Source: an uncultured Mycobacteriaceae bacterium
GTDB lineage: Bacteria; Actinomycetota; Actinomycetes; Mycobacteriales; Mycobacteriaceae
Assembly (NCBI GenBank): GCA_902826815.1
Contig: CADEGF010000042.1
Location: 1-64,000 of the forward strand
Reading direction: 5' to 3'
Length of the DNA stretch: 64,000 nt
The translations under genes and the position numbers were made by a program. Positions within the stretch are counted from its first letter, which is position 1. Each line of letters begins with the position of its first letter. The notes beneath the pieces were generated by a model that was not told the DNA's origin, searched no databases, and saw nothing but the letters and a program-made list of their open reading frames with translations. Below, piece by piece: positions 21,966 through 52,873 of this stretch.

Positions 21966-22041
21966 ATCGGCCAGGCTAGCGAACTCTGCCACCGGAACCC
22001 GCAAGGCGCGGCGCGGCGAGTTAATTAGATACGGTCGATTG

Positions 22042-23550: not shown

Positions 23551-23607
23551 ACCGTATTGGCCCTCGAAACGCCTACGCGGAATCTTCCGATGTGATTGCG
23601 TAATCGG

Positions 23608-25542: not shown

Positions 25543-27508
25543 AGTCGAGCGGCCGGATGACCTGACCGCCGAGTGGCTGACGGCTGCCATCGGCTCGGGC
25601 ACGGTGGAGAGTTTCAGCACAGAACGCATCGGTACCGGCCAGATGAGCGAGTGCTACCGCGTCGCGCTGACGTATGCCGACGGAGCTGCGGGCCCTGCGT
25701 CGGTGGTGCTGAAGGTCGCCGCCTCCGATCCCGCGAGCAGGCAGACGGGTCTGGCACTCGGACTCTACGAACGTGAGGTGCGCTTCTACACCGATATCGC
25801 GCCCCGCGTCGGCGGACCCGTTGCACCTTGCTACAGCTCGGGTTTCGACGGTGAGACGGGCGTGTTCCATCTACTCCTCGGGGATGCCGCTCCTGCGGCT
25901 GTCGGCGATGAGATCCGCGGTGCCACAGTGGAACAGGCACTGCTGGCGATGACCGAATTGGGCCACCTGCACGCGCCGCTGCTCGGACAAATGGCGATGG
26001 CCGAAGTGGATTGGCTCAATCGTGATTCGCCAATGAACCAGGCGCTCATCACGCAGCTGTACGCCGGATTCGTCGACCGGTACGGCGACGACATCGCGCA
26101 GCCTCATCGTGAGGTGTGTGAGCGGTTGGTTGCGAGCTTCGACGCTTACCTCGCTGAGGCGCCGGATCTCATTCACGGGCTGGTGCACGGGGACTACCGG
26201 CTGGACAACATGCTGTTCGGACAACCGGGAGCCGACCGGCCGCTCACCGTCGTGGATTGGCAGACCGTCACGTGGGGCCCCGCGACGATGGACGTCGCCT
26301 ATTTCATGGGCTGTGCATTGCCCGACGAAATTCGGCGCGAGAACTACGACGCACTTCTCGGCGCGTATCACACCGCGTTGGGGCCAGAGCCGTTGCTCAG
26401 CATCGACGACGTGCGCGAAGGCGTTCGGCGACAGAGCTTTTTCGGCGTGATGATGGCGATCGTCTCCTCGATGCTCGTGGAGCGCACCGAGCGCGGCGAC
26501 GAGATGTTCATGACGATGCTGCGGCGGCACAGTCAGCACGTGCTCGACACCGACGCCCTGGCGACACTGCCGGCTCCGGCCGCCCCCGAACCATTGCAAC
26601 CCGCTGCCGACGACGAGGGCGCGCACCCGCCGGGCGCCGAGCCGCTGTGGAGCGAGAGTTGGTACGCCGACTTCGTCGACGAGAAACAGGCGATCGGCGG
26701 CTGGTTCCGGCTGGGCCTGATGCCCAACCAATCGATCGCGTGGGTCAACGCGCTGCTGTGCGGACCCGATATGCCCACCGTCGCGGTCAACGACTTCGAG
26801 GTGCCGGTGCCGGTAGATGCCGGCGTCGTACAGACCGACGCCTTCGAGCTGACTCACACCGCGACCGAACCCTTGCAGACGTACCACGTCCGGCTGCGCG
26901 GCAGCGGCCAGGCTTACGACGATCCGTCTGCACTGTTGCGGGGAGAAGCGGGGCGACCGGTCGAACTCTCGATGGACCTTCACTGGTCGACTGCGGGCAC
27001 CCCATACCAGTACCGCCTGACGCCCCGGTACGAGATTCCGTGCACGGTGTCGGGCACCGTCAGCTTCGGCGATACGACGATCGAGGTGAATGCCGTTGCC
27101 GGACAGCGCGACCACTCGTGGGGGGTGCGGGACTGGTGGAGCATGGACTGGGTGTGGAGTGCCCTGCATCTGCAGGACGGAACGCATCTGCACGGCGTCG
27201 ACTTGCGAATCCCCGGGGCCCCTCCGATGGGCGTCGGCTACATCCAGCCGCCATCAGGGCCGCTGATCGAACTCCGAGCCGTGACGGCAAGGGAAACGTT
27301 CGGCGACAACGACTTACCTGCGACGACCGAGCTGATCCTGAAGCCAGCAGACGTTACGGCAGCGGTGCAGATCATGGGCCATGCGCCGGTGCTGCTGACG
27401 TCGACTGACGGCAGGGTGAGCCGGTTTCCGCGCGCGTGGGCGACCATCACAACCGCCGACGGCCGCACCGGGGTCGGCTGGCTGGAGTGGAACCGAAGCC
27501 AACGATGA
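25529..27508 (+). CDS. APH-type kinase fused to a beta-rich C-terminal domain
   Basis: A 659-residue two-part protein. Residues 1 to about 350 are an APH/ecdysteroid-kinase-like phosphotransferase with the catalytic [12 protein letters not shown] and VVDWQTV motifs, very like the kinase at 3948-5015. After a Pro/Ala linker (about 348-375) comes a second domain of about 280 residues, rich in beta strands, with a distinctive [13 protein letters not shown] motif seen in proteins paired with such kinases (DUF7064/7065-like). It overlaps the amine oxidase stop, suggesting co-translation. Kinase substrate and role of the second domain are unknown. Confidence 0.85.
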
Positions 27509-37420: not shown

Positions 37421-38266
37421 TCAGGCGTCCAACCGCTTGCGGCGGAACAGGGTTCCGACGGCCAGCAGGACGAGGCTGATCATCAGGATCGCGGTTGCCA
37501 ACACGTTGATCTGCGGGGGAACCGCGGCCTTGACGGCTGCGTTCACGTACAGCGGATAGGTCACCGTCGAGCCGCTGACGAAGTAGGTGATGATGAAGTC
37601 GTCGAGCGACAACGCGAACGAAAGCATCGCGGCGGCGATGATGCCGGGAACGATCAGCGGCAGCGTCACTTTGAAGAATGTGCGGGTGGGGCCGGAACCG
37701 AGGTCCATCGACGCATCTTCGAGAGTCCAGTCGAATCCGCGTACCCTTGCCCGCACCGTCATGGCGATGAAGCTGATCTCGAAGGCGATGTGCGCGATCA
37801 GAATCGTGGTGTAGCCGGCCGCCCAGCCGAAATCGAGGAACAGCGTGAGCAGCGCTGCGCCCATCACGACTTCGGGAGCGGTCAGCGGGATCACCAGGAA
37901 GGTATCGACGGCTGTCGAGCCACGGAACCGTTGTCGCACAAGCGCTATCGCGACCAGGGTGCCGAGGACAAGGGCGATCGCCGTGGATACCGCGGCGACG
38001 TTGAGGCTCAGCATCAGCGCGTCAGTGAGCGCGGGATACTTGAACGGGTCGGCCCAGTTCTTGAGGGTGAAGCCCTCCCAGGAGTAGTTGAACTTGCCCT
38101 TCGGTTCGTTGAAGGAGAACAGGATGATCACGAAGATCGGCAGGAACAGATACAGCAGCACCAGGCCTGCGACGACCCGCAGGATGACATCGCCCCATTT
38201 CGGGGTGCCCTTAACGGTTTTCGCCGGTGTGGGGCTGGTCGCCTCCGCCATCGCCTGGGTCGTCAT
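37421..38266 (-). CDS. ABC transporter permease, PotC type
   Basis: A 281-residue inner-membrane permease with six transmembrane helices and the EAA loop LEDASMDLGSGPTRTFFKVT followed by LPLIVPGIIAA. It pairs with the PotB-type permease, whose stop it overlaps by ATGA. It is the last gene of a PotA-D-B-C type importer operon. Spermidine/putrescine is the family precedent; other small cationic or amine substrates are possible. Confidence 0.9.
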   Translation of the reverse strand: MTTQAMAEATSPTPAKTVKGTPKWGDVILRVVAGLVLLYLFLPIFVIILFSFNEPKGKFNYSWEGFTLKNWADPFKYPALTDALMLSLNVAAVSTAIALVLGTLVAIALVRQRFRGSTAVDTFLVIPLTAPEVVMGAALLTLFLDFGWAAGYTTILIAHIAFEISFIAMTVRARVRGFDWTLEDASMDLGSGPTRTFFKVTLPLIVPGIIAAAMLSFALSLDDFIITYFVSGSTVTYPLYVNAAVKAAVPPQINVLATAILMISLVLLAVGTLFRRKRLDA

Positions 38267-39138
38267 ACCAGGTCCTCCGTGCCCAGCGCCCTTGTATAGA
38301 GCAGCACGCCGACCAGAATGATCACCATCAGCACCATCGACAGTGCTGCGGCCGCGGGGTAGTCCTTGACCACGAGGAACTGCTTCTGGATGACGTTGCC
38401 GATCATGGTGGTCTGGGTGCTCCCCAGGTAGTCGGCGTTGATGAAGTCGCCGACGGCAGGGATGAAGGTGAGCATGCCGCCCGCAATCACACCGGGCATC
38501 GCAAGCGGCAGAATGACTCTGCGGAAGGCGCGCGCGTTGGACGAGTACAGATCCTTCGACGCCTCGATGAGTCGCGGGTCGATCTTCTCCAGGCTGACAT
38601 ACAGCGGAAGGATCATGAAGATGATCCAGTTGTAGGTCAGCCCGCCGATCACGGCCCAACTCGTCGACAGCAGACGTCCTTCATCGGGCAGCATGCCGAC
38701 TGAACCGAGTGCGCTGACCACCCAACCATCGTCGGCGAGAATTGTTTTCCACGCGATTGTGCGAATCAGGAACGTGACGAAGAAGGGCAGGATCACCAGG
38801 CCGAGGATGAGGTTCTTGTAGCGACCCGCCTTGAACGCGATGACGTAAGCCAGCGGGAACGCCAGCAGCACACACAGCACCGTCGCAGCGCCCGCGTAGG
38901 TGAACGACCGGATGATCTGTTCCTCGTAGGTCCTGAACGCCTCGAGGTAGTTACTGAAGTCCCACGAGAACGTCAGCGTCGGTAGGTAGATCGAACCGCC
39001 CGTCGATGACAGCGACGTACGTGCCAGCGAGAAGAACGGCACCACGAAGAAGATCGCGAGGTACACAAGGGCGGGCAGGATCATGAGGTACGGAGCGATT
39101 TTGCTCCGCTGCCGACTGCTGCTGGCTACGCCTGCCAT
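38263..39138 (-). CDS. ABC transporter permease, PotB type
   Basis: A 291-residue permease with six transmembrane helices and the EAA motif LIEASKDLYSSNARAFRRVI followed by LPLAMPGVIAGG. It begins four bases after the stop of the substrate-binding protein and overlaps the PotC-type permease by four bases. It is half of the membrane channel of the importer. Confidence 0.9.
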   Translation of the reverse strand: MAGVASSSRQRSKIAPYLMILPALVYLAIFFVVPFFSLARTSLSSTGGSIYLPTLTFSWDFSNYLEAFRTYEEQIIRSFTYAGAATVLCVLLAFPLAYVIAFKAGRYKNLILGLVILPFFVTFLIRTIAWKTILADDGWVVSALGSVGMLPDEGRLLSTSWAVIGGLTYNWIIFMILPLYVSLEKIDPRLIEASKDLYSSNARAFRRVILPLAMPGVIAGGMLTFIPAVGDFINADYLGSTQTTMIGNVIQKQFLVVKDYPAAAALSMVLMVIILVGVLLYTRALGTEDLV

Positions 39139-39142
39139 CGGA

Positions 39143-40342
39143 TCAGGCGCCGGTGACCGACGCGTACAACGTGTTGAACTCTTGGGTCTGCTCGTCGGTG
39201 AGCGGCGCCCATGACTGCAGCCTGGCTGCGTCCGCCTCCGGCGGAACGATCAGCGGATTCTTCGCCAGCGCCGGATCGAGCTTGTCGAGCTCCTCGTTCA
39301 TATCCGACAGCACCGGAACGTATTGCACGAAAGCCACCAGCTTGGCGTAGTTGGGGCGGTCGTAGATGTAATTGATCCACTCCTCGGCGGCGGCCTGGTT
39401 CTGCGTCGTGTACGGGATCACCATGGTGTCGATGAACCAGTCGCCGCCGGACTCCGGGATGATGAACTGCAGGTCGGGATTGTCGGCTTGCAGCTGAACG
39501 ACGTCACCCGAATATGCCTGCGCGACAGCGATATTGCCCGCCGCGAGATCATCGGCGTAGTCGTTGCCGGTGAATCGGCGAATCTGGCCCTTGTCTTTCT
39601 GCTCCTTCACAAGGTCGACGGCTTTCTGAACCGATTCGGTGGTGGGGTCCTCGACCGAGTTGCCCTGCGACTGCATGATCATGCCCAGCCCGTCCTGGGT
39701 GTCGGACAGCAGGCTGACGCGACCCTTGAACGCCGGATCCCACATGTCGTCGATGGTCCTGATGTCGCGACCTGTCGCCGCCTTGTTGTAGGCGAGGCCG
39801 ACCATGCCCGTCATGTACGGCGCCGTCGACTTGCGGCCGGGGTCGACCTTCGTGTTCAGCAGGTCCTCGCGGAGGTTCTTCTTGTTGGTCCAACGAGCTT
39901 CGCGGATCTCGTTGAGCCAGCCGAGGTCCAGGATGCGGGCCGCCATGAACTGGGTCGGCACCGCGAGGTCGGCGCCGATGTCCTGCTTACGTGACAGCGG
40001 TTCCTTGACCTTGGCGAACCACTGCTCGTTGTCGTTGAAGTCTTCCTTGTAGTCCACCGTGATCCCGGTCGCCGTCTGGAACGCGGCGACGAATCCGTCG
40101 GCCATGTACAGGGGCCAGTTCGAGACGCGAAGCTCGCCCGACGCGGGCGCGCCGTCGTCAGCCGGCGCGGACGCCGAAGGCGCACTGCCACCGCCGTTGT
40201 CGGATGACCCACAGGCCGCGAGGAATGACGGACCGAGGATCGCGGCCGCGGCTGCGGCGGCGCCGCCACCGATGAAACGGCGACGCGAGGTGCGATTGGT
40301 AGCGAAGCGAGACAGGAGCCGGGGATCGATTTCGTTGGGCAT
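39143..40342 (-). CDS. Polyamine-type substrate-binding lipoprotein, PotD type
   Basis: A 399-residue solute-binding protein. The N-terminus carries a twin-arginine motif (SRRRFIGGG, residues 19-27) and a lipobox LAAC at Cys44, so it is probably Tat-exported and lipid-anchored. The mature part is a class D binding protein: LRVSNWPLYMADGFVAAFQ, FIIPESGGDWFIDTMVIPY and YDRPNYAKLVAFVQYVPV resemble PotD/PotF. It lies between the ATPase gene and the permeases. Ligand identity is not proven by sequence. Confidence 0.9.
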   Translation of the reverse strand: MPNEIDPRLLSRFATNRTSRRRFIGGGAAAAAAAILGPSFLAACGSSDNGGGSAPSASAPADDGAPASGELRVSNWPLYMADGFVAAFQTATGITVDYKEDFNDNEQWFAKVKEPLSRKQDIGADLAVPTQFMAARILDLGWLNEIREARWTNKKNLREDLLNTKVDPGRKSTAPYMTGMVGLAYNKAATGRDIRTIDDMWDPAFKGRVSLLSDTQDGLGMIMQSQGNSVEDPTTESVQKAVDLVKEQKDKGQIRRFTGNDYADDLAAGNIAVAQAYSGDVVQLQADNPDLQFIIPESGGDWFIDTMVIPYTTQNQAAAEEWINYIYDRPNYAKLVAFVQYVPVLSDMNEELDKLDPALAKNPLIVPPEADAARLQSWAPLTDEQTQEFNTLYASVTGA

Positions 40343-40395
40343 AGCAAGTGCGCCTTTCGTTGGGGAGAAAGCGGGACGGGGTCGAACGCGGACCG

Positions 40396-41607
40396 CTACG
40401 AATCGTCGAGCATCTCCTCGAGGTCCTCGGTGGTGGGGATATCGGCAGCCGGAAGTACCAGCGATGCCTCGGGTGCCCAGCTGGCATGGACGCTGTCGCC
40501 CGGACGCAGCAGCGGGAGGTCCTGCTCGGGCCCGATGTGCGCGACGATCGTCGAGTCATCCGGTGCGGCGAGCAACAGCCGGACGACGGGACCTTGGAAG
40601 GTGAGGTCCGTGACCGTCGCGGGAACCGTTGCGACGTCGCCCGTCGGCGCCTCCATGGACACCCTGACTCGTTCCGGCCGGATCATCAGCGTTGCGTGGC
40701 CGCCCGGCTCGATGGTCGTGTCACCAGGTCTGGCCTTCAGCGTAGTGCCGAGCACCTCGACCTGAACGAAGTCACGGTTGGCCCGTCCGGTCTGCGTACC
40801 CGCCCACAGGTTGGCCTGTCCGATGAAGCTGGCCACGAAGACTGTCGACGGCCGGTCATAGATCTCGGTCGGGCTGCCGATCTGGTCCACGTTGCCCGCG
40901 TTCATGACCGCGATGCGGTCACTCATCGTCAACGCTTCTTCTTGGTCGTGGGTGACATAGACGAACGTGATGCCGACCTCGCGCTGGATGCGCTTGAGCT
41001 CGAACTGCATCACCTGACGCAGCTTGAGGTCGAGCGCGCCGAGCGGCTCGTCGAGCAGTAGCGCGCTCGGATAGTTCACCAATGCTCGGGCCAACGCAAC
41101 GCGCTGCTGCTGCCCGCCGGAGAGCTGAGCAGGCTTGCGCTGGGCGAAGTCGGTGAGGCGAACGATCTCGAGCAGTTCGTCGACGCGTCTCTTGACCTCG
41201 GCTTTGTCCTTCTTCATGCTGCGAGGCCCGTACGCGACGTTGTCCCACACCGTCATGTGGGGGAACAGTGCGTAGTGCTGGAACACGGTGTTGACGTTGC
41301 GCTTGTGCGGGGGCACCCGCGAAACGTCTTTGCCCTCCAGACGGATGGCGCCCTCTGTCGGTGTCTCGAATCCGGCGATCATCCGCAGCGTGGTCGTCTT
41401 CCCGCAGCCCGACGGGCCGAGCATCGAGAAGAACTCGCCGGAACCTATCGAGAAGTCGGCTTCTTTGACGGCCACGTAGTCGGAGAAGCGCTTCGTGACG
41501 TTGTCGATCTCGATGACCGGGCTGCCCTTGGGACGGGCGACCCCATCGGATCCTGTCGCGTGCTCCTCGTGGGTGGTGTGTATGTCGGTCAGGACGGTTC
41601 CTCCCAT
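40396..41607 (-). CDS. ABC transporter ATPase, PotA type
   Basis: A 403-residue ATPase with Walker [10 protein letters not shown], signature [15 protein letters not shown], Walker [12 protein letters not shown] and a C-terminal TOBE domain (about 300-385). It powers the importer encoded downstream. The first 30 residues before [11 protein letters not shown] are a non-family extension, and GGGAGG occurs within the first codons, so translation might begin further in. It heads the operon; 240 bases without a recognisable gene precede it. Confidence 0.92.
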
Positions 41608-41847: not shown

Positions 41848-42276
41848 ATGGCAAAGATTGATGTGGCGGTGACGACTGACCTGGCTCCGCCGCAGGCGTG
41901 GAAGCTGGCATCGGATCTGCACCGCTTCGACGAATGGTTGACGATCTTCGGTGGCTGGCGCACTGAGGTGCCTGATGACATCGAAGTCGGCACCTGCGTG
42001 TCCTCGATCATCAAGGTCAAGGGGTTTCGCAACGTCATCCACTGGCAGGTCACCCGCTACGACGAGCCGAAGCTGATCGAGATGTCCGGTGCGGGCCGCG
42101 GCGGGGTCCGCATTTCGTTGACCGTCGAGGTGCAGAACGCCCCGCCGGGGTCGAGGTTCCGGGTGCTGGCCGAATTGAAGGGTGGCCTGCTTGGCACCCG
42201 GGTCGGTCAACTCGTCGCGAGGGTGCTGCAGTCGGAGATTCGCAAGTCGGTGACCAACCTGGCCGCCCTGCGCTAA
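41848..42276 (+). CDS. SRPBCC-family protein (Rv0910-like)
   Basis: A 142-residue START/Bet v1-like protein: MAKIDVAVTTDLAPPQAWKL, LHRFDEWLTIFGGWR and a C-terminal helix GTRVGQLVARVLQSEIRKSV. It resembles the mycobacterial Rv0910 group, annotated as a toxin of a type II toxin-antitoxin pair, but no antitoxin gene is adjacent here. Its stop overlaps that of the convergent MFS gene. A lipid-binding role is equally likely. Confidence 0.85.
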   Translation: MAKIDVAVTTDLAPPQAWKLASDLHRFDEWLTIFGGWRTEVPDDIEVGTCVSSIIKVKGFRNVIHWQVTRYDEPKLIEMSGAGRGGVRISLTVEVQNAPPGSRFRVLAELKGGLLGTRVGQLVARVLQSEIRKSVTNLAALR

Positions 42277-43745
42277 CCCCACTCGTGGTTCATGGCACGG
42301 GATTCGTAGCGCGCCTCGACGGAATCGTTGCCGCCCGCCTTCACCCGCGACAGTGCGATGAGCACCATCGCCAGCCCGCCCGTCACCGCTCCACCGGTGA
42401 AGATCGCGACGAAGCTGCTCTCCGCTGGCACAGACGTGCCGCTCCCTGCCCGGCCCAATAGGACGGCGACGAGCGCCGCGGCAATGGAGCTGCCGATTGT
42501 GCGCGCGATCGCGTTCATCCCGGTGGCGACGCCGGTTTCGCCCTTGGTGACCTCGCTGACCACCAATGCGGGTAGCGCGCCGTAGCCGAGGCTGATGTAG
42601 GCGTTGGCCAGGATGCTGGCCACGATGACCTGCCACGGGGCGGAATGAGCGAGCGCGATGAACAGGAAACCGGTGATGCCGACGGCCGCTGCGATCACAA
42701 GCACCGGCCTGGCGCCGAAGCGGTCGATGAATCTGCCGCTGACCAGGGCGACAAGGAAACCCGTCAGCGCGCCGGGCAGCAGATAGATGACGCTGGCCTC
42801 GAGGACGGTCGCGCCGAAACCGTATCCCGCTGCCTCGGGCGGTATCTGGACGAACTGCGTCAACCCGAGGAACGCGAAGTACAACCCCATGCCGACGAAG
42901 ATGGTGGCGAGGTTGGTCAGCATGATCGGGCGTCGGCGCAGCATCTTCGTCGAGACCAGCGGCTGCTTGGCGCGTCCCTCCCAGAGCCACCAGCCGACCG
43001 TGATGAGGAGTCCGCCGACCGCGCTCGCCAACGTGCGGGGTGATGTCCAGCCCCACGTGTGGCCCTGGGTGATCGCCAGCAGGATCGCGGACAGTCCGGC
43101 GGCGAGGCCGACGGCGCCGAGCCAGTCGATCGATCCCGTCGCACTGCGCGGGCGGGCCGGTACCACGAACACCACGATGACGATGACGACGAGCGTGAAT
43201 GCGGTGGTGAGCCAGAAGACGCGGTGGTAGTCGGCGCCGTGGTCAACCAGCAGGCCGACGACGACCAGTCCGGTTCCACCTCCGAAGCCGAGCGTTGCGG
43301 AGAGCACCGACATCGCCGACACCATGCGGTCCTCGGTGAGTTCTTCGCGAAGGATCGCGACGCCGATGGGATACAACGCGAACGAGGCCGCCTGAAGGAT
43401 GCGGCCCACGATCAGCAGCGGCAGCGACGACGTGGTTGCCGCGAGCACCGACCCCGCAAGCACGACGGCCAGCACCCATAGCAGCACCCGCTTCTTGCTG
43501 TGCAGGTCGGCGAGACGACCGAGCAACGGGGTGGCCGCCGCGGCGGCAAGCAGGTTCGCGGTGACAGCCCAGCTGACCGCGACGGTCGAGGCGTCGAGTT
43601 GGTCGGCGATGACGCCGAGAACGGGTACGACGGCGGTCTGCAGAATGGCGACGGTCAGGACCACGATGCTCAGCCCGACGATCAACGCGCGGGGTCTGCG
43701 AATCTGTTCGTAGGTCGTGGAGTGCGTCGGTTCCGCCCTGACCAC
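42273..43745 (-). CDS. MFS transporter, 14-helix DHA2 type
   Basis: A 490-residue transporter with about 14 hydrophobic helices. Motif A-like GRLADLHSKKRVLLW follows helix 2, and a central loop carries PARPRSATGSIDWLGAVG. DHA2 proteins export drugs or metabolites by proton antiport. The GTG start lies 40 bases after the P1 peptidase stop, so it may be the last gene of the amine-catabolism operon. The C-terminal tail is hydrophilic and short. Substrate is unknown. Confidence 0.9.
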   Translation of the reverse strand: MVRAEPTHSTTYEQIRRPRALIVGLSIVVLTVAILQTAVVPVLGVIADQLDASTVAVSWAVTANLLAAAAATPLLGRLADLHSKKRVLLWVLAVVLAGSVLAATTSSLPLLIVGRILQAASFALYPIGVAILREELTEDRMVSAMSVLSATLGFGGGTGLVVVGLLVDHGADYHRVFWLTTAFTLVVIVIVVFVVPARPRSATGSIDWLGAVGLAAGLSAILLAITQGHTWGWTSPRTLASAVGGLLITVGWWLWEGRAKQPLVSTKMLRRRPIMLTNLATIFVGMGLYFAFLGLTQFVQIPPEAAGYGFGATVLEASVIYLLPGALTGFLVALVSGRFIDRFGARPVLVIAAAVGITGFLFIALAHSAPWQVIVASILANAYISLGYGALPALVVSEVTKGETGVATGMNAIARTIGSSIAAALVAVLLGRAGSGTSVPAESSFVAIFTGGAVTGGLAMVLIALSRVKAGGNDSVEARYESRAMNHEWG

Positions 43746-43785
43746 TCCACGCTCCGATCGTTAGCCCATCTTAGGTTCTACCCGA

Positions 43786-44946
43786 TTATGTCCCGTGGTC
43801 GACAAGCGCCGCCAACCGAGCGTGTGGCAGGCACGGCGAGCGGTGGCCGTCACGGCCGACCATGTCGTCGTTGACGACGAGCGCATTGAGGACGGCTTCT
43901 TCGACCGATTGCACGACGGCGGTGTAGAGGTCGTCCATCCGGCCCCATGGCACGAAGGAGATGGTGCCGAACTCGTCGGCGCCGACGGGGCCGATCGGGA
44001 ACGCACTGGCCAGGCCGGGCACATCCGCCGTCGAGAAGGCCAGGAAGATGTCACCGGAGAAGTGGCTGCCCGAGGTGCCCGTGCGCGCAAGCCCGAGCGG
44101 AACGCGTCTGGCGAGTGCCTTGCACTGGCCGGGTAGCAGGGGGGCGTCGGTGGCGACGACGACGATGACCGATCCGGCGCCTGCAGGCGGTTTGAGCCCG
44201 AGATCGACCTCGAACCAGTCTCCGTCGAGCGGGTTGTCGTCCAGCAGGTCGGGACCGATATGCCTTCCGGCGACGGACAGTTCGGCGCGCGAACCGAAGT
44301 TCGCCTGGACGAAGGCGGCGACGGTGAAGGTGGTGTCGCCGTAGGGGACCAGCCTCGAAGCGGTGCCGTTGCCGCCCTTGAACTCGTAGCAGTTCATCCC
44401 GGTCCCGCCGCCGACCGAGCCTTCGGCCACGGGTCCCGGTGTGGCGGTGTCGAGCGCCGCCTCGACGTGTTCGGGGTGAACGTGGCCGCCGTTGATGTCA
44501 TTGAGGTAGCCGTCCCACGTTTCCGCGCACACCGGAAGCAGCCACTGCCGCGCAAGCGTCGGATTGACCCGGTTGACCCAGCGGATGACGCCGGTGTGGC
44601 AGGCCCCGATCGAGTGCGTATTCGACAGCACGACAGGCAGATTGAAGGACCCGGCCTCGTCGATCCATGTGGTGCCGGTCATCTCGCCGTTGCCGTTGAG
44701 CGAATACCATCCCGCCGCGCACGGCTGCCCGACGCCGTCCCGGCCTCGCGGCAGGATGGCGGTGACGCCGGTACGGACCGGGCCCTCGCCCACCACGAGT
44801 GGGCCGTCGCCTTCGATCAACGTGGTCACCCCGACCTCGACGCCCGCGACATCGGTGACGGCGTTGAGCGGGCCAGGGTCGCCGGGCGGGGCGATGCCGA
44901 GCGCCCGCGCCCTTGGTCTGCCGTCAGTGGTGTGCGTCGTGGTCAC
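43786..44946 (-). CDS. P1-family (DmpA-like) peptidase/amidohydrolase
   Basis: A 386-residue N-terminal-nucleophile hydrolase of family S58. The autocleavage site is visible as Gly258-Ser259 in AGSVIVVVATDAPLLP, corresponding to Gly249-Ser250 of DmpA. Other conserved parts are LNAVTDVAGVEVG, SNTHSIGACHTGVIRW and EGSVGGGTGMNCYEFKGG. Members remove N-terminal D- or beta-amino acids or hydrolyse amides. It starts 11 bases after the APC permease stop, in the same operon as the glutamine-synthetase-like ligase, so it might cleave a gamma-glutamyl amide. Confidence 0.92.
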   Translation of the reverse strand: MTTTHTTDGRPRARALGIAPPGDPGPLNAVTDVAGVEVGVTTLIEGDGPLVVGEGPVRTGVTAILPRGRDGVGQPCAAGWYSLNGNGEMTGTTWIDEAGSFNLPVVLSNTHSIGACHTGVIRWVNRVNPTLARQWLLPVCAETWDGYLNDINGGHVHPEHVEAALDTATPGPVAEGSVGGGTGMNCYEFKGGNGTASRLVPYGDTTFTVAAFVQANFGSRAELSVAGRHIGPDLLDDNPLDGDWFEVDLGLKPPAGAGSVIVVVATDAPLLPGQCKALARRVPLGLARTGTSGSHFSGDIFLAFSTADVPGLASAFPIGPVGADEFGTISFVPWGRMDDLYTAVVQSVEEAVLNALVVNDDMVGRDGHRSPCLPHARLAALVDHGT

Positions 44947-44957
44947 TGAAGACGAAT

Positions 44958-46406
44958 CTAGCGGTGCTCGGGTAGCGAATCATCGCCTTCGGCAAGCGAT
45001 GTGCCGATTCGCTCCATCACCTCGGGACGTTTGCGCAACGTGAAGAAGAGCAGGCCGACTCCGACGACGATCCAGGCCAGGAACACGAACGGCAGGGCCC
45101 CGTAGATCCCGGTCTGCAACGGCCAGACGGTCTTGTACAGCGGGTACAGGAACACGATCGATCCGAGCAGGCCAAGAACCCCGTGTCGGAACCACCTGAA
45201 CTCACCGATGCGCCGCATGTACCGGATCAGCCCGAAGTTGGTGAATATGTACGACACCAGGAATGCGATCGAGATGAGGAAACCGAAGTAGCCCCACACG
45301 TTGAACGGGCCGACCAGGAAGGCAAGGGGCACACCGAGTGCCATCGACAGCACGGCCATCACCGCGATCCCGGCCAACGGCGTCTGACGGGCGGACACGG
45401 TGCCGAGGCGGCGCGGAAGAACGCCTTCGCGGCCCAGCGTGTAGAGCACGCGTGCACCGGCGAGGAATGCGGTCTGGCTGAACGCCAGGATGCTGCTGAG
45501 TGTGGCCAGCACGACGATCGCGAGGCCGAACTCGCCCCAGTAGGAGTTCGCGATGGTCTGCAGCGGGGCAGGGTCTTCGCCGAACTCGGTCATCTTGTCG
45601 ATCCCGTAGCCGTAGACCATGGCGTAGGCCACGAAAATGTAGAAGGCGGGAACCACGACGGCGGCCACCCAAAGTCCGAGTGGGATCTGCCGTTTGGGCT
45701 CCTTGACCTCCATCCCGAGTGTCGCGCCCTCTTCGATGCCGACGTGGGAAAGCACGGCGTAGGTCATCGCGAGGCCGACGCCTCCGAGACCGAGCGCACC
45801 GGCCGAGGAGACCTGGAACGGGGTGAGCCCGAAGTTTCCGCCGGACTGTGGTCCGGAGATGAAGATCCAGATCCCGAGCGCGAGTAGCACGACCATCTCG
45901 AAGCCAAGCAGCGCCAGCGCAGCGTGCAGCGACTGCGTGATACCCAGATAGGCCAGCGTGCTCACGTAGGCCAGCGCAAGGAACGTGAAGATCCACCATG
46001 GCACCGACACCCCGAACTGGGTGTTCAGCCATTCCTCGACCCAACCACCGAACACGGCGAAGCCTGCGGCCGAGAAGACCAGGTAGGCGCCGATGAACAT
46101 CCAGCCGTACACGAAGCCGACGTTGGCACCCCAGGCCTTGGAGTTCCACGTGTACAGACCACCCGATGTAGGCAGCCTCTTGGAGAACTCGGCGAACGTG
46201 TTGACCAGCAACAGGATTCCGGGCCAGACGAGGACGAAGGCAAGGACCAGCGCCGCGCCTGCGAACTGGCCCATGAACTGGAGGTTCAGTGCGATGACCG
46301 ACGCCGGTCCGCAGCCCGCCACCGACAGCACCGCGACCTGTTTCCAGTTGATCGCGCCGCGTCGCAGGCTGCGCTCGGCTGTTACGACTTCGTTGGTATC
46401 CGGCAT
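44958..46406 (-). CDS. APC-family amino acid/amine permease
   Basis: A 482-residue transporter with 12 predicted transmembrane helices. Typical APC features are GCGPASVIALNLQFMGQFAG in the first helix, FSKRLPTSGGLYTWN and a SHVGIEEGATLGMEVKEPKR loop. It lies between the ligase and hydrolase genes, where E. coli puu has the putrescine permease PuuP. It probably imports the amine or amino compound degraded by the operon. Confidence 0.91.
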   Translation of the reverse strand: MPDTNEVVTAERSLRRGAINWKQVAVLSVAGCGPASVIALNLQFMGQFAGAALVLAFVLVWPGILLLVNTFAEFSKRLPTSGGLYTWNSKAWGANVGFVYGWMFIGAYLVFSAAGFAVFGGWVEEWLNTQFGVSVPWWIFTFLALAYVSTLAYLGITQSLHAALALLGFEMVVLLALGIWIFISGPQSGGNFGLTPFQVSSAGALGLGGVGLAMTYAVLSHVGIEEGATLGMEVKEPKRQIPLGLWVAAVVVPAFYIFVAYAMVYGYGIDKMTEFGEDPAPLQTIANSYWGEFGLAIVVLATLSSILAFSQTAFLAGARVLYTLGREGVLPRRLGTVSARQTPLAGIAVMAVLSMALGVPLAFLVGPFNVWGYFGFLISIAFLVSYIFTNFGLIRYMRRIGEFRWFRHGVLGLLGSIVFLYPLYKTVWPLQTGIYGALPFVFLAWIVVGVGLLFFTLRKRPEVMERIGTSLAEGDDSLPEHR

Positions 46407-46451
46407 TGCGCACCCGTTCCCTTCCTCATGCGTGAAACGCTTTTAGTTGAA

Positions 46452-47843
46452 CTACATCGGCTCGAGGTAACGCGCGATTTCCCAGTCGGTGACCGCGAGC
46501 GACTGCGCCTTCACCTCGGCGCGCTTCATCTGCACGTAGTGGTCGACGAAGTCGTCGCCGAACCATTCGCGCGCCGTCGGACTCTGGTGAAGGAGATCGA
46601 TTGCCTCGCTGAGTTCGGTTGGCAACGTGGTCAATTGCTCGGCAGGCTGGCTGTAGACGTCGCCCTGGTTGAGTTCGCCGGGATCGATCTTGTTGAGCAA
46701 CCCGTGCAGGCCGCCCGCCAGTGCGGCGGCCGTGACGAGGTATGGGTTGGCGTCGCCGCCCGGTTGGCGGTGCTCGAGGCGGGTTCCGTGCTCGCCCTCC
46801 CGGATCGCCCGGAGGCCGACCGAGCGGTTGTCGACACCCCAGGTCGCGGTGGTGCCCGCCCAGGAATACGGGACGTAGCGGCGATAGGAGTTGGGTGTCG
46901 GCGCCATCAGCGCGGTGAACTCTCGCATCGTGCTCAACACGCCGCCTGCGAAATATCGCATGGTGTCCGACAGTTGCCCTGGAGCGTCGGCGTCGAAGAA
47001 CACGCCTCTGTCCTGCTGATCGCGCAGGCTGATGTGCACGTGGCAGCTGTTGCCCGCCCAACTGGTCGTCGGTTTCGCCATGAACGTCGCCAGCAGATCG
47101 TTCTGTGCGGCAACTTCTTTGACACCTGATTTGAAGAGAAACGCATCGTCGGTCGACTTGAGGCTATGGCCGTACCGCAGCGTGATCTCGAACTGGCCTG
47201 GGCCTGTCTCGGGATTGCACGCTTCGACCGGCAGCCCGTAGGCGAGCATCCGCGACCGGATGATCGAGCCGATGCCCTCCTGCAGCGAGCCCATCACCAC
47301 GCCGTAGGTGCTCGGCACGCCTTGCAGCGGTACGAGCTCGTCGGGGCGCTTGTGATGGGGAGTTCCCGCCTTCTCCCGAAGCAGATAGAACTCCAGCTCC
47401 AGCGCGCTCATCGGTTCATAGCCCATTTCGCGGGCGCGCTCGACGATGCGGCGCAGAATGCCGCGCGGTGAGATCGGCACCGCGCCACGGCCTTCGGGCA
47501 GCTCCCAATCGCATACGAACAGGGCGGTGTCGGGATGCCATGGCACGATCCGCACGCTGTCGAGATCTGGTATCGCGTGGATGTCCGGATAGCCCTTGGC
47601 TTCGGTGGGGAAGTAGCCGGAATAGTCGTCGGGTCTGGCCACGAGATCGGATTCGTCGACATGCATCACCCAGAACACGTCGCAGACGGGCAGACCGTGT
47701 GCCAGCACCGCCTCGAGGCCGCCGACGGGAATACGCTTTCCACGCATCACCCCGTGGGTGTCGCAGCCACCCAGTACGACGGTGGAGATCCCGTCGGACA
47801 TCAGTCGCTCGACGACTTCGGCTGGTGAGCTCTCGGCCGTCAT
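46452..47843 (-). CDS. Glutamine-synthetase-family ligase (gamma-glutamylamide synthetase type)
   Basis: A 463-residue member of the GS fold that lacks the housekeeping GlnA pattern and resembles PuuA/GlnA3/GlnA4-type enzymes, which join glutamate to amines using ATP. Catalytic segments are SALELEFYLL (metal site), NSCHVHISLR (His loop), GVDNRSVGLRAI and LEHRQPGGDANPYL. The ATG at 47843 overlaps the upstream monooxygenase stop by four bases. The amine substrate is not deducible; operon partners suggest an alkylamine or amino alcohol. Confidence 0.9.
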   Translation of the reverse strand: MTAESSPAEVVERLMSDGISTVVLGGCDTHGVMRGKRIPVGGLEAVLAHGLPVCDVFWVMHVDESDLVARPDDYSGYFPTEAKGYPDIHAIPDLDSVRIVPWHPDTALFVCDWELPEGRGAVPISPRGILRRIVERAREMGYEPMSALELEFYLLREKAGTPHHKRPDELVPLQGVPSTYGVVMGSLQEGIGSIIRSRMLAYGLPVEACNPETGPGQFEITLRYGHSLKSTDDAFLFKSGVKEVAAQNDLLATFMAKPTTSWAGNSCHVHISLRDQQDRGVFFDADAPGQLSDTMRYFAGGVLSTMREFTALMAPTPNSYRRYVPYSWAGTTATWGVDNRSVGLRAIREGEHGTRLEHRQPGGDANPYLVTAAALAGGLHGLLNKIDPGELNQGDVYSQPAEQLTTLPTELSEAIDLLHQSPTAREWFGDDFVDHYVQMKRAEVKAQSLAVTDWEIARYLEPM

Positions 47844-49501
47844 GAGTGGCACTCCTCGCTGACCGGGATCGGGCGGATGCCGAGCAGGAAACCCTCGTAC
47901 CCGCGGGTGATGATCTGTTCGCATTCACGCCGGTACTGGCCGCATCCGGCCACGTAGGGCATGAAAATGCGCGGTTTGCCGGGTATGTTCGAACCGACGT
48001 ACCACGAATTCGCCTGGGGGTAAAGCGTTTCGGCGGCCAGCTCGGCGACGTGGTCCATCCATTGCTCCTCCGCAGCCTGGGACGCCTCGATGCGCGTGAG
48101 CCCGAGCGTGCGGAGATGGATGAGGCAGTCTGCGATCCAGTCCACATGCTGCTCGATCGACACGACCATGTTGCTCAGCACCGACGGGCTACCTGGACCG
48201 GTGACGGTGAACAGATTGGGAAAGCCCGCGGTCTGCAGTCCGAGCAGCGTGCGGGGGCCGTCGGCCCATTTTTCGCGCAGCGACAAACCGTCGATTCCGC
48301 GGATGTCGATGTCGGCAAGGGCGCCGGTGATGGCGTCGTACCCGATGGCGAACACGACGATGTCGACGTCGAGATGCCGGTCCGACAGTTGGATGCCGGT
48401 GGGGGTGAGGCACTCGATCGGGTGTGCGCGGACGTCGACGAGTTCGACATTGGCCCGGTTGTAGGTTTCGAAGTAGCCGATGTCCACACAGGTCCGTTTG
48501 GTGCCGATGTGGTGTTTCGGGCACAACAGTTCGGCGGTTTCGGGATCGCGGACAGTCTCGCGAATCTTGTTGCGCGCGAAGTCCTGCGCCTGCCTGTTCG
48601 CGGTTTCGTCGGTGAAGAAGTCGGTGTACGCGGCAGAAAGGGCGTTGATGCCGCCCCGCCGCCATCCGTCCTCGAAGCGGGTGAGCCGCTGTTCTTCTGA
48701 CATTTCGAATGTCGACTGGGTCGGAGGGGGATGGGGTACACCGGCATCGGAGTGTTCGCAGATCCTGCGCCTGTCTGCGAATGTCGAGATGGCTTCCTCG
48801 ATCTCGCGGGCGTCGAGGGGACGGTTCTGCGCAGGCATGCTGTAATTGGCTGTCCGCTGCAGGACATGCAGGTGAGCCGCGGTTGCGGCGATCCGCGGAA
48901 TGGCCTGGATGCCTGACGATCCGGTGCCGATCACGGCGACGGTCTTGCCTGCGAAGTCCACCTGGCGGTGCGGCCAGCGACCGGTGTGATACCACTCACC
49001 GCCGAAGTCGGCAAGGCCGGGGAAGTCCGGCTGCTTGGCCACCGATAGGCAGCCCGACGCCATCACGCAATAGGTGGCTCGAACCGTCTCGCCGGTGTCG
49101 CAGCGGACCGTCCACTCGTTGTCGGTGTCGTTCCATTCGGCCGTTGTCACGGTGGTGCGAAAGGAGATGTGCTTGCGAAGATCGAAGCGGTCGGCGGCAT
49201 GGCCCAGGTACGCGAGGATCTCCGGTTGGGCCGCATAGCGTTCGGTCCAGCGCCACTCCCGGGTCAGCGATTCGTCGAACGAGTACGAGTAGTCGATGCT
49301 CTCGATGTCGCAGCGCGCCCCCGGGTAGCGATTCCAGTACCAGGTGCCGCCGACGTCGTCGCCGCGTTCGAAGACACGCGCGGTGAGGCCGAGCCCGCGG
49401 ATGCGGTGCAGCATGTACAGCCCGGCGAAGCCGGCGCCGACGATCACGACGTCGACGCGGTCGGGTGCGCGTCGGTCTGAAGAGGACCCGGGTGTGCCCA
49501 T
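47840..49501 (-). CDS. Type I Baeyer-Villiger-like flavin monooxygenase
   Basis: A 553-residue FAD/NADPH monooxygenase. It has FAD motif GAGFAG at residues 22-27, the NADPH Rossmann motif GTGSSG, and between them the Baeyer-Villiger fingerprint FGGEWYHTGRWP (FxGxxxHxxxW). Type I enzymes insert oxygen into ketones or oxidise N and S atoms. It starts four bases after the alcohol dehydrogenase stop and overlaps the ligase start by ATGA. The ATG at 49501 is preferred; the upstream open frame is a shadow of the dehydrogenase gene. Confidence 0.92.
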   Translation of the reverse strand: MGTPGSSSDRRAPDRVDVVIVGAGFAGLYMLHRIRGLGLTARVFERGDDVGGTWYWNRYPGARCDIESIDYSYSFDESLTREWRWTERYAAQPEILAYLGHAADRFDLRKHISFRTTVTTAEWNDTDNEWTVRCDTGETVRATYCVMASGCLSVAKQPDFPGLADFGGEWYHTGRWPHRQVDFAGKTVAVIGTGSSGIQAIPRIAATAAHLHVLQRTANYSMPAQNRPLDAREIEEAISTFADRRRICEHSDAGVPHPPPTQSTFEMSEEQRLTRFEDGWRRGGINALSAAYTDFFTDETANRQAQDFARNKIRETVRDPETAELLCPKHHIGTKRTCVDIGYFETYNRANVELVDVRAHPIECLTPTGIQLSDRHLDVDIVVFAIGYDAITGALADIDIRGIDGLSLREKWADGPRTLLGLQTAGFPNLFTVTGPGSPSVLSNMVVSIEQHVDWIADCLIHLRTLGLTRIEASQAAEEQWMDHVAELAAETLYPQANSWYVGSNIPGKPRIFMPYVAGCGQYRRECEQIITRGYEGFLLGIRPIPVSEECHS

Positions 49502-49505
49502 CGAT

Positions 49506-50702
49506 CTACCCGGAGGCCGCCGTGAGCTGACGCTCCCGGAGGGACAGGGCCGAGGCGAAGGCGGTGTACACCTCGGCCCTGTCCCACGGCTCGGGTGACA
49601 TGGAGATGAAATAGTCGGCGAGTGCGAGGTCGGTGAGCCGCTCGAGGTCAGCGTCGGCCAGCCCGAGTTCGGACATGACGGGGAACTGGAGTTCGGCCAA
49701 AAGCGTTCGGACGGCGGTGACGAGGCGCGACCCGTCGCGCGTGCCGTCGTCGGGCAGGCCCCACGCATCGGCGCAGCGTTCGAGTTGACCGGGCACCCAA
49801 CGACGTTCCCTCTCCAGGGTTTCGACGAGGACGAGGCCGATGGTCAGGCCGTGTGGAGCCCCGGTGAGGCCGCCGATCGCCTGGCCGAGGGAATGTTCTG
49901 CGGCGCAGTCGGAGATGTTCATCGCAAGACCGGCCATCATGGCACCGCACGACATGTTCGACCGCGCCGTGGCATCGGAGCCGTCGCGAAATGCGGCGAG
50001 CAGCGAGTCACCCATCAACCGGACCGCTTCGAGGGCGATCGCGTCGCCGATCGGGGTACGAACCTTGGCCACCGTAGCCGCGATCGCCTGCGCCAGTGCG
50101 TCGATACCGGTGTTGGCCGTCATGGTCGGCGGCATGCTCCATGTCAGCTCGGGATCGACGACCGCATACTGCGGTCGCAGGTTCGGGTGTGCGATCCCGG
50201 CTTTACGTCCGGCGTCGGGGTCGGAGATCACCGAACCGCCCGAGACCTCGGAACCGGTGCCCGCGGTGGTCGGAACCGCGATCAGCGGAACCGTCGGCTC
50301 CGGGTAGACACGGTTACCTTCGAGAAACTCGGCGAATGACACATTCAGCTGGTGGCACAGTCGCGCCGCCTTCGCGGTGTCGATCACCGACCCGCCGCCG
50401 AGGGCGATCACCGCGTCGGTGTGCTCGGCCCGCATCCGCGACGTCGCGACATCCACCATCGCGATGGTCGGCTCACCCGGAGGCTTCTCCATACGAGTGA
50501 TGGCCAGACCCGATTCGCGCAGCGCAGCGGTGACGCGTGCGACCGCCGGGTTGTAGGTCTCGGCATTCTCGTCGGTCAGGAGCAGGATGTGGGTTGCCCC
50601 GGCGGACTTGGCGATATCGGAAAGCCGGTGGGCGGTGCCGTCGCCGAACGTGATGCGTACCGGCAGATGATTGGCGAAGTCGGCAATCGAACCAACCGTC
50701 AT
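49506..50702 (-). CDS. Iron-containing alcohol dehydrogenase family protein
   Basis: A 398-residue group III alcohol dehydrogenase with the NAD-binding GGGSVIDTAKA and PTTAGTGSEVSGGSV. Metal ligands expected in FucO are Asp196, His200, His263 and His277. Here Asp201, the His of AEHSLGQ and the His of APHGLT are present, but the second position is Gln205 (DALAQ instead of DALTH). It may use another metal geometry or act as a maleylacetate-reductase-like enzyme. It heads the six-gene - strand operon and is divergent from the FadR gene. Confidence 0.9.
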   Translation of the reverse strand: MTVGSIADFANHLPVRITFGDGTAHRLSDIAKSAGATHILLLTDENAETYNPAVARVTAALRESGLAITRMEKPPGEPTIAMVDVATSRMRAEHTDAVIALGGGSVIDTAKAARLCHQLNVSFAEFLEGNRVYPEPTVPLIAVPTTAGTGSEVSGGSVISDPDAGRKAGIAHPNLRPQYAVVDPELTWSMPPTMTANTGIDALAQAIAATVAKVRTPIGDAIALEAVRLMGDSLLAAFRDGSDATARSNMSCGAMMAGLAMNISDCAAEHSLGQAIGGLTGAPHGLTIGLVLVETLERERRWVPGQLERCADAWGLPDDGTRDGSRLVTAVRTLLAELQFPVMSELGLADADLERLTDLALADYFISMSPEPWDRAEVYTAFASALSLRERQLTAASG

Positions 50703-50756
50703 GGTCTTGCTTCCATACCAACAGACAATAGGTCCAAGCGCGGTAGCCTTCAAGAG

Positions 50757-51446
50757 ATGCCAGACGAGTTTCTGCTGAGACCGCTCGACACGCCGCCGGC
50801 CTATGTCGCGGTCGTCGGCCGAATTCGGCGTGCCATGGCACTCGGCGTTTTGCTGCCCGGCGACCGACTGCCTGCCGAGCGGGCACTGGCCGACGGACTG
50901 GGAGTCTCGCGGGTCACCGTCAGGGAGGCGCTGCGAGTGCTGCAGGGGGAGGGCCTGCTGATCACGAAGCGGGGCAACAGCGGCACGATCGTGTCGCACG
51001 CCGTGACGAGCTGGGGATCTTTCGATGAGTACGACAAAAAGCTGGCCGAGGTCTTCGAACTACGGCTGGCTGTCGAAACAATGACGGCCCGGCTGGCCGC
51101 CGAACGCGCCGGGGCACAAGATCTTCGACGGCTGACTGCGTGCCAGCAGGCGCTCGAGACGAGCAACGACATGCACGCGTTTCGGCGGGCCGACTCCGAG
51201 TTCCACCTCACCGTGGCCCGGATGAGCGGCAACAGCATGCTCAGCGACGTGGTCGAGGACGTCCGCGCGGCGGTCATCTTCCGCCTGGACAGATACGACT
51301 TCAACGTGATCTACGAATCGTCGATCCGCGGCCACGCCCGGGTCATCGATGCAATCACAAAACGCGATGCCGAAGGCGCGGCTGCGGCTATGGATGCGCA
51401 CCTCGAGGAGGCCCGCGCGGAGGTGATGGCGGTGCTGTCGGGCTGA
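50757..51446 (+). CDS. FadR-type GntR regulator
   Basis: A 229-residue regulator with an N-terminal winged helix (PGDRLPAERALADGLGVSRV, then TVREALRVLQGEGLL) and a FadR C-terminal domain (about 85-225; DSEFHLTVARMSGNSML and GHARVIDAI). It is divergent from the alcohol dehydrogenase operon, with 54 bases between starts, so it probably controls both that operon and its own. The ATG at 50757 is fixed by family length. Confidence 0.9.
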   Translation: MPDEFLLRPLDTPPAYVAVVGRIRRAMALGVLLPGDRLPAERALADGLGVSRVTVREALRVLQGEGLLITKRGNSGTIVSHAVTSWGSFDEYDKKLAEVFELRLAVETMTARLAAERAGAQDLRRLTACQQALETSNDMHAFRRADSEFHLTVARMSGNSMLSDVVEDVRAAVIFRLDRYDFNVIYESSIRGHARVIDAITKRDAEGAAAAMDAHLEEARAEVMAVLSG

Positions 51447-51469
51447 TCCCGTCGTGATCGAATGGACCC

Positions 51470-52873
51470 ATGACACATGGGGGTTCTTCATCGAGTGCGC
51501 TGACGGCGCCGACGTTCAGCGGCCGCACTCCGTCCGGCGCAGGGGATCTGTCGGTCGAGACGCACGGCATCGCACCGATCCGGGCGGACCAGCGTTACGG
51601 CAGCCCGCGGCGGCTGTTCACCGTTTGGTTCGCGCCGCAGGTCAACATGACCGGTGTCTTCACGGGTGCGCTGGCGATCGCGCTGGGGCTCGGGTTCTGG
51701 CTCGGCATGCTCGCCATGGTGATCGGAACCGTGCTCGGCTCCCTTGTGGTCGGCTACCTGTCGACATGGGGTCCTCGCACAGGGGCTGCGCAGCTGCCGA
51801 ACTCCCGGATGGCCTTCGGCGGCGGCGTGGTACTTCCCGGTGTGCTGCAATGGCTTTCGTCGATCGCATGGGATGCGCTGGTAGGCCTGTTCGGCGGTGA
51901 GGCGCTCGCCACCCTTCTCGGTATCCCGTTCTGGAGCGCCGTTCTCATCGTGTTGGCCGTGCAGGGTGTGGTCGGGTTCTTCGGATACGAGATGATCCAC
52001 CGCATCCAGGCGGTGTTGACGGTCGTTCTGCTGGTCACCTTCGTCGTGTTCGCGATCAAGCTGGCCGCGGGCCACGAGATCATCACGCCTGCGACGGTGC
52101 AGGGTCCCGACCTCGTCGGTGCCTTCATCCTCGAGGTGACCATCGCGCTGAGCCTGTCGATCTCGTGGGCAAGCTACGCGGCCGACTTCAGTCGGTATCT
52201 GCCCGCCGAATCGTCGCGGCTCCGGGTCTTCGGATTCACGTTCGCCGGAATAGTTTCGGCGTACGTGTTCGTGCAGGGAATCGGGATCGCGGCGGGTGAT
52301 CTGGTGTCCGAGCACACCGCCGACGGCGTCCGGTCGGTGATGGGTGGCGGGATCCTCGGAGCGCTGGCGCTTCTCGTCATCGCCCTTGCGTCGATCGGCT
52401 CCGGTGTGATGAACGACTACAGCGGGTCGCTGGCGCTGCAGACCATCGGAGTGAAGGTGCGCAGGCCGGTCTCGGCCATCGTCGTCACCGTCATCGCGTT
52501 CGGTCTGATCCTGTGGCTGCACGGTGGTGAGACAGCGTCCCGATTCGAGCACGTGCTGCTTCTGGTGAGCTACTGGATTCCGGCCTTCGTGGCGGTCGTC
52601 GTGATCGATTGGGCGTTGCGGGTGCGGGGACGGACGTCGATCAACCCCGCCGAGGAACACACAGGCCGCGGCGACGCGATCGCCGCGGTGGTGGCATTCG
52701 TCCTCGCCTACGCCGCCGCGGTGCCGTTCATGAACACCTCGTTGTTCACCGGCCCGGTGTCAGCAGCGTGGCACGGCGCCGACGTCGCGTACTTCGTCAA
52801 TTTCCTTGTCGCAGCGCTTCTTTACGGTGGCTACCGGCTCCTGGGCTCCCGCCGAGCCAACTTGGACAGGTAG
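51470..52873 (+). CDS. NCS1-family purine/cytosine-type permease
   Basis: A 467-residue transporter with 12 helices of the nucleobase:cation symporter 1 family (LFTVWFAPQVNMTGVFTG, AQLPNSRMAFGGG, SWASYAADFSRYLP). It starts 23 bases after the FadR stop and is probably co-transcribed with it. The family imports cytosine, purines, allantoin or thiamine-like molecules; here it may deliver a nitrogenous substrate for the divergent operon. Its 3' end overlaps the convergent acetyltransferase gene by 43 bases. Confidence 0.88.
   Translation: MTHGGSSSSALTAPTFSGRTPSGAGDLSVETHGIAPIRADQRYGSPRRLFTVWFAPQVNMTGVFTGALAIALGLGFWLGMLAMVIGTVLGSLVVGYLSTWGPRTGAAQLPNSRMAFGGGVVLPGVLQWLSSIAWDALVGLFGGEALATLLGIPFWSAVLIVLAVQGVVGFFGYEMIHRIQAVLTVVLLVTFVVFAIKLAAGHEIITPATVQGPDLVGAFILEVTIALSLSISWASYAADFSRYLPAESSRLRVFGFTFAGIVSAYVFVQGIGIAAGDLVSEHTADGVRSVMGGGILGALALLVIALASIGSGVMNDYSGSLALQTIGVKVRRPVSAIVVTVIAFGLILWLHGGETASRFEHVLLLVSYWIPAFVAVVVIDWALRVRGRTSINPAEEHTGRGDAIAAVVAFVLAYAAAVPFMNTSLFTGPVSAAWHGADVAYFVNFLVAALLYGGYRLLGSRRANLDR

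Follow-up and report, generated by a model that had tools for sequence, protein, structure and literature searches.

A candidate FadR-controlled actinobacterial cassette that may join gamma-glutamylation to Baeyer-Villiger oxidation in amine catabolism

Why should the gene for a Baeyer-Villiger monooxygenase (BVMO) lie against that for a ligase of the glutamine synthetase (GS) fold? The question is raised by a locus in a 64,000-nucleotide stretch of contig CADEGF010000042.1, here called the window, from an uncultured Mycobacteriaceae bacterium. In this locus, genes for an Fe-type alcohol dehydrogenase (Fe-ADH, or ADH), a BVMO, the ligase, an APC-family permease, a P1/S58 hydrolase and an MFS transporter follow one another on the minus strand with gaps of 4, -4, 45, 11 and 40 bases (starts as annotated), divergent from plus-strand genes for a FadR-type regulator and an NCS1-type permease. 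An initial annotation, which had described this arrangement accurately, took the six-gene run for a single operon in which an amine is glutamylated, oxidized and then released by the P1 enzyme. Comparison with other genomes shows that the run is a composite of two units, a cassette and a resident block. On balance, the cassette is probably a FadR-controlled unit for the catabolism of an amino ketone through glutamylation, BVMO oxidation, ester cleavage by an esterase, oxidation by the Fe-ADH and an aldehyde dehydrogenase (ALDH), and deglutamylation, which has spread horizontally among actinobacteria.

At the thresholds used, and with the window's own genome included, the cassette ligase is rare: it was found in 2 of 148 relatives, 2 of 396 genomes of the phylum and 9 of 396 genomes of the genus. 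A one-genome-per-species collection, scanned with two peptide patterns and therefore with incomplete recall, yielded 27 loci with a relative of the ligase, and at identities of at least 60% the BVMO gene lay directly before the ligase gene in 11 of 11; a genus search added three further BVMO-ligase loci. Fifteen copies of the cassette were compared, namely that of the window and those designated L035-L044, L046, L128, L131 and L132, all of which were found through the ligase. Their hosts are mycobacteria, Nocardioides, Actinomadura, Planosporangium and one metagenome-assembled genome. BVMO and ligase are present in every copy, the pair being 60-85% identical in other genera, and in all fifteen an in-frame ligase start (13 ATG, 2 GTG) may share four bases with the end of the BVMO gene, with other in-frame ligase starts present in several copies. 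Identity at this level in other genera together with the same overlap throughout indicates that this gene order goes beyond chance. Quick trees built from 12 cassettes place the BVMOs (0.999) and the ligases (0.994) in a clade each.

Around this core, the gene content varies. The FadR gene is found in 14 of 15 copies (missing from L043), and a homologue with 57-78% identity occupies the same divergent position in 13 of the 14 copies other than the window. ADH is present in 12 (missing from L039, L042 and L043) and the APC permease in eight (window, L037, L038, L040, L041, L044, L046 and L128), its seven homologues being 81-85% identical. A C26 gene (gamma-glutamyl-hydrolase type, PuuD family) occurs in seven copies (L035, L037, L038, L040, L041, L046 and L128), an HSL esterase in five (L039, L040, L041, L042 and L132, in the last on the far side of FadR), ALDH in four (L037, L038, L041 and L046) and S58 in two, the window and Mycolicibacterium agri (L044). 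All seven genes stand together in Actinomadura L041, in the order C26-ALDH-ADH-BVMO-GS-HSL-APC, and L045, with a 56% identical ligase, has ligase, APC permease and a C26 match without a BVMO. Hidden Markov models served to check the families C26, ALDH and HSL in L037, L039, L040 and L041; elsewhere the names come from tblastn. The expectation that the six genes would be conserved together holds for the core of the cassette and does not extend to all six.

The S58, MFS and NCS1 genes belong to the second unit, together with genes for a Pot-type polyamine ABC transporter. S58 homologues occur in 24 of 147 other relatives, 18 of them in the same genus at 68-88% identity, and none of these 18 genomes (two of them only 70-73% complete) has the cassette ligase at E 1e-100. 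In short stretches around the 24 homologues, MFS lies near S58 in 12 and NCS1 in three, and the four longer stretches (L104-L107) all carry S58-MFS-Pot and no cassette. In L104, L105 and L106, NCS1 is divergent from S58-MFS-small gene-Pot, its aligned part 40-97 bases away from that of S58; L107 has no NCS1. Because this block occurs without the cassette in other mycobacteria, we regard S58, MFS and NCS1 as resident neighbours. FadR-ADH-BVMO-GS-APC sits exactly between the NCS1 and S58 positions in the window and in M. agri, and from a comparison of window positions 37421-52873 with L104-L106 the cassette seems to have been inserted into the NCS1/S58-MFS-Pot block. The cassette has another site in L037, L038 and L046, where a trio of carboxylesterase, copper amine oxidase and EcKL genes follows it.

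Since it stands at different sites in different genomes, the cassette appears to be mobile as a whole, and we infer that it has spread horizontally among actinobacteria. No mechanism of mobility was found: of the short repeats (20 of 32 direct-repeat families), none lay at both cassette ends. The S58 gene, 11 bases 3' of APC, is possibly co-transcribed with the cassette. As a conserved part of the pathway it was rejected on its distribution, being beside only two of the 15 copies and present without the ligase in the 18 same-genus genomes, and the NCS1 and MFS proteins were rejected as pathway transporters on the same distribution. Their membership in the pathway is therefore not supported, nor is the claim of an unusual P1 hydrolase made in the initial annotation; copies whose cassette includes a glutamyl-amide hydrolase of known type (7 of 15) have C26. 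The interval given in that annotation, 43786..52873, contains the other genes and leaves the MFS gene outside.

The GS-fold protein is best read as a predicted gamma-glutamyl organic-amine ligase of the GoaS/GlnA4/IpuC type. In what we take to be the GS numbering, it keeps equivalents of the metal and glutamate residues E129, E131, E212, E220, H269, R321, R339, R344, E357 and R359 and lacks those of D50 and E327 in the ammonium site. The genome's two GlnA-type proteins have DGSS and the Glu in PGYEA/HGGEA, neither of which is found in the window ligase, and an ordinary GS was rejected because the ammonium-site residues are lost. The nearest plasmid homologues include two proteins annotated as IpuC, with 40-41% identity, and the score against NF045547 (PuuA/GGputSyn) is 235.8 bits, far below the cut-off of 650. 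In the ligase of L043, a Pro replaces one usual Arg. The same kind of ammonium-residue loss is described for GlnA4 in the available part of its paper (PMC6529630), and in the accessible text on NpaA1 such differences are given as one likely cause of the inability of these ligases to use ammonium (PMC11335346). The proposal that the locus encodes a glutamylation-type amine route with BVMO oxidation thus stands, on the loss of these residues, the IpuC homologues, and C26 in seven and ALDH in four of the 14 other copies; only the membership of the P1, MFS and NCS1 proteins falls away from it.

Type I BVMOs are recognized by two Rossmann motifs and the fingerprint FxGxxxHxxxW. The solved protein closest to the window BVMO is phenylacetone monooxygenase (1w4x), with which it has the type I motifs and catalytic residues in common: the fingerprint reads FGGEWYHTGRW, and equivalents of Arg337 (R337) and Asp66 (D66), which we take to be catalytic, are kept. 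The fingerprint was found in 12 of 12 cassette BVMOs examined, the second Rossmann motif of L040 ending GTGSSA. Changes such as A442V, Q152C and V54T (numbers counted on the alignment with 1w4x) fall at positions that presumably line the pocket. Alcohol dehydrogenases of known structure are relatives of the Fe-ADH, whose metal site has a Gln where that of 8zrl has His; as Gln is also found in 6jko and in 9 of 9 cassette ADHs examined, nothing was concluded from it. The S58 protein has the S58 domain, and its Gly-Ser aligns with what we take to be the self-cleavage site of 1b65.

Taken together, the cassette is best read as a front end of BVMO and esterase placed before the known glutamyl-amino-alcohol route. 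The APC permease would import an amine bearing a ketone group, and the ligase, with ATP, would couple the amine to glutamate and thereby mask it. The BVMO would then insert oxygen beside the ketone to form an ester, from which the esterase would release a gamma-glutamyl amino alcohol and a carboxylic acid. The Fe-ADH, followed by ALDH, would convert this alcohol to a gamma-glutamyl amino acid, from which the C26 gamma-glutamyl hydrolase would free glutamate and a small amino acid. Glutamylation may keep the amino ketone from closing to a cyclic imine, a form in which the ketone would be out of reach of the BVMO. The amino-ketone substrate and the order of the steps are presumptive; glutamylation, BVMO oxidation, hydrolysis and alcohol oxidation, the order of the initial annotation, still appears to be the best one. 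ALDH directly adjoins ADH in 4 of 4 ALDH-bearing copies. C26 and ALDH are missing as well from the three copies without ADH, which nevertheless keep BVMO and ligase, so the BVMO does not seem to depend on ADH, and the three genes missing together may form a late block. Fifteen loci with distant ligases (L047-L061, 34-40% identity), searched by tblastn with the cassette proteins, have ligase, then ALDH, then Fe-ADH in eight, ALDH before and ADH after the ligase in one, and a C26 match in two; a cassette-like BVMO was seen in none of the 15. The esterase, ALDH and deglutamylation steps of the window strain would come from elsewhere in the genome, or deglutamylation alternatively from the adjacent S58. 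Thirteen C26 matches occur in this genome, some of them weak and most of the strong ones next to other GS genes, and contig C28 carries a GS-C26-ALDH locus; the late steps could thus be supplied in trans.

Two neighbourhoods touch on the substrate and the product. An Orn/Lys/Arg-decarboxylase-like gene (L043 5332-6810) lies between Pot-type genes and BVMO-GS; with the Pot-type genes before the BVMO, it fits an amine substrate and is a possible hint to its nature. The Nocardioides cassette is adjoined by genes for glycine cleavage, serine hydroxymethyltransferase, lipoyl synthase and serine dehydratase (L039 17-7177, L042 4-7269; the L042 neighbourhood assigned by gene clusters). These neighbours would fit glycine as the end product, but they represent a single lineage.

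The same genome carries a second cluster of this kind on contig C10, in the order GS, GS, HSL esterase, short-chain dehydrogenase/reductase (SDR), BVMO-like, C26 (L071, G000:C10:22000-32000, 1734-9518, minus strand). Its BVMO is 28-29% identical to the cassette BVMO and its ligases 32-33% to the cassette ligase. Orthologues of the C10 BVMO (74-84% identity) occur in five other relatives, HSL-SDR-BVMO being kept in all five, and the full GS-GS-HSL-SDR-BVMO-C26 order is found in both long stretches available, L119 and L120 (mycobacteria); two weaker homologues (44-45%) lack the full order. This separate cluster supports the logic of glutamylation plus BVMO. It also allows a broader idea, tentative and short of an even chance: glutamate may be, in actinobacteria, a removable protecting group for the Baeyer-Villiger breakdown of amino ketones, which blocks cyclic-imine closure while BVMO and esterase cut the chain, the gamma-glutamyl amino alcohol then entering the known glutamyl-ethanolamine-like route. 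Such a logic would have arisen at least twice, with both cluster types in this genome.

Regulation may be read from the intergenic region. Every one of the 14 FadR-bearing copies has, next to the FadR gene, the imperfect 19-base inverted repeat TGGTATGNAANNNNNACCA, which either precedes the first cassette gene or falls at its start; 12 copies match it exactly and two (L036 and L046) with one mismatch. The pattern was derived from these same stretches, window included, and has its sole match in the window at this place, with 0.01 expected. This motif is probably the FadR operator, for which we infer candidate status from its position and conservation. A promoter scan gave no site of the sigma-70 type, with 1.4 expected.

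Several observations weigh against the pathway as drawn. The window cassette itself lacks C26, ALDH and esterase genes, and among the 15 copies C26 is missing from eight, an adjacent HSL esterase from ten and ALDH from 11; both C26 and S58 are absent from six (L036, L039, L042, L043, L131 and L132). The C26 and ALDH proteins of L037 fall below the curated cut-offs for PuuD, PuuC and aminobutyraldehyde dehydrogenase, and L039 and L042 are close relatives that count as nearly one. C26 stands beside the C10-type BVMO in two (L111 and L114) of the four genomes with enough flank; it was not seen in the available flank of L112 and L113, and the L110 stretch ends early. Oxidation of N or S is also within the reach of class B enzymes such as the BVMO. 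For the 19-base motif, the whole genome with one mismatch allowed gave one match against two for the reversed control, so only position and conservation in diverged loci argue for it.

Other roles for the same genes were considered. The Fe-ADH could precede the BVMO and supply its ketone by oxidizing a gamma-glutamyl secondary alcohol, with the remaining steps unchanged. ADH lies directly upstream of the BVMO in 12 of 15 copies, and its kinship with solved alcohol dehydrogenases would suit this role; set against this are the three copies that keep BVMO-GS without ADH and the ALDH adjoining ADH wherever it occurs, which fits consecutive alcohol-aldehyde oxidation, and we consider such a route rather unlikely. 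Phenylacetone monooxygenase takes simple ketones and is the nearest solved relative, which would fit two branches in which the BVMO acts on a free ketone from the amine skeleton and the ligase on a different amine fragment, without any glutamylated ketone. The possible four-base overlap of BVMO and ligase in all 15 copies and several genera speaks against this, weakly, because the copies were found by the ligase; the two-branch scheme seems to us somewhat less probable again.

The version of the initial annotation, with P1/S58 as the pathway deglutamylase in place of C26 here and in M. agri, draws on the position of the S58 gene in these two copies, both without C26: it lies 11 bases 3' of APC in the window, and in M. 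agri it is likewise adjacent. It is at odds with those other mycobacteria that have S58 along with MFS, NCS1 and Pot genes and no cassette, with the 13 of 15 copies that lack S58 (six of these 13 also without C26), and with the C26 genes beside other GS genes in this genome, and we judge it improbable. The cassette genes of the proposed amino-ketone pathway, and their surroundings, are located in Table 1.

Table 1. Positions of the cassette, its neighbours and the conserved motif in the window
Feature	Position	Strand	Remarks
FadR-type (GntR/FCD) regulator	50757..51446	+	PF00392 + PF07729; divergent from cassette
Conserved inverted-repeat motif TGGTATGGAAGCAAGACCA	50702..50720	-	ends at ADH start codon
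Fe-type alcohol dehydrogenase (Fe-ADH), cassette	49506..50702	-	PF00465 + PF25137
Type I Baeyer-Villiger monooxygenase (BVMO), cassette	47840..49501	-	1w4x match, E 1.6e-198
GS-fold ligase, predicted gamma-glutamyl organic-amine type, cassette	46452..47843	-	PF00120, 334.6 bits
APC-family permease, cassette	44958..46406	-	PF13520
P1/S58 (DmpA-type) hydrolase, resident neighbour	43786..44946	-	PF03576, 363 bits
MFS transporter, resident neighbour of S58	42273..43745	-	near S58 in other genomes
NCS1-type permease, resident neighbour	51470..52873	+	in L104-L106, S58 is its direct divergent neighbour, no cassette between
Pot-type polyamine ABC transporter genes, resident block	37421..41607	-	ATPase above TIGR01187 cut-off; binding protein PF13416
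Carboxylesterase, copper amine oxidase and EcKL/DUF7064 genes, distant neighbours	21565..27508	+	

The Pot block also has two permease genes, named from sequence. The carboxylesterase-copper amine oxidase-EcKL trio was rejected as part of the cassette: it lies 3' of APC, with the carboxylesterase gene next to APC, in three of the 15 copies (L037, L038 and L046), but in the window the trio is apart from the cassette, and a link to the pathway is uncertain. The EcKL-like kinase gene with DUF7064/DUF7065 (25529-27508) overlaps that of the copper amine oxidase.

The cassette resembles several known systems in part. The Puu putrescine pathway of E. coli uses a ligase, a permease, an ALDH and a C26 hydrolase, types that are also found here, together with the PuuB oxidase, where the cassette has BVMO, esterase and ADH. 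The ipu clusters on plasmids pTC1 and pTC2 of Paenarthrobacter aurescens TC1, source of the IpuC proteins at 40-41% identity to the window ligase, have a glutamine amidotransferase, an ALDH and an oxygenase nearby; the oxygenase there belongs to the P450s and comes with ferredoxin and reductase, they have an SDR, and no BVMO is annotated in them. A hydroxylating P450 lies beside ipuC in TC1, whereas the window has the BVMO and no P450 between FadR and MFS; the cassette BVMO, with the HSL esterase in five copies, thus takes the place of the ipu P450. The ethanolamine cluster of GlnA4 in Streptomyces coelicolor shares genes for a GS-like gamma-glutamyl ligase, a dehydrogenase, an ALDH, a glutamine amidotransferase and a transporter, as well as the loss of ammonium residues, but as listed in the part of the paper available it has no BVMO or esterase, and an SDR where the cassette has Fe-ADH (PMC6529630). 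The 1-naphthylamine and aniline ligases NpaA1 and AtdA1 (GoaS) likewise start oxidative breakdown by glutamylation, in their case of aromatic amines and, according to the accessible text, with a dioxygenase system (PMC11335346). A lead from piperidine and morpholine metabolism gave no glutamylation-plus-BVMO pathway in the part of the source available (PMC9477822), and no such pathway was described among the matches listed in the open-access literature, taken by title and abstract start, with subscription journals mostly outside this scope.

Known gamma-glutamylation routes oxidize the tagged amine by an oxidase, a P450 or a dioxygenase. A BVMO in that position, if the proposal is true, would be a new way of cutting the carbon chain in amine catabolism. 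It would also give the clade of BVMOs related to phenylacetone monooxygenase a physiological substrate class and a natural role, and would explain the co-occurrence of BVMO and GS-like genes. The cassette is compact and comes with a regulator and a candidate operator, and named environmental strains carry it, among them Mycolicibacterium agri and Actinomadura formosensis.

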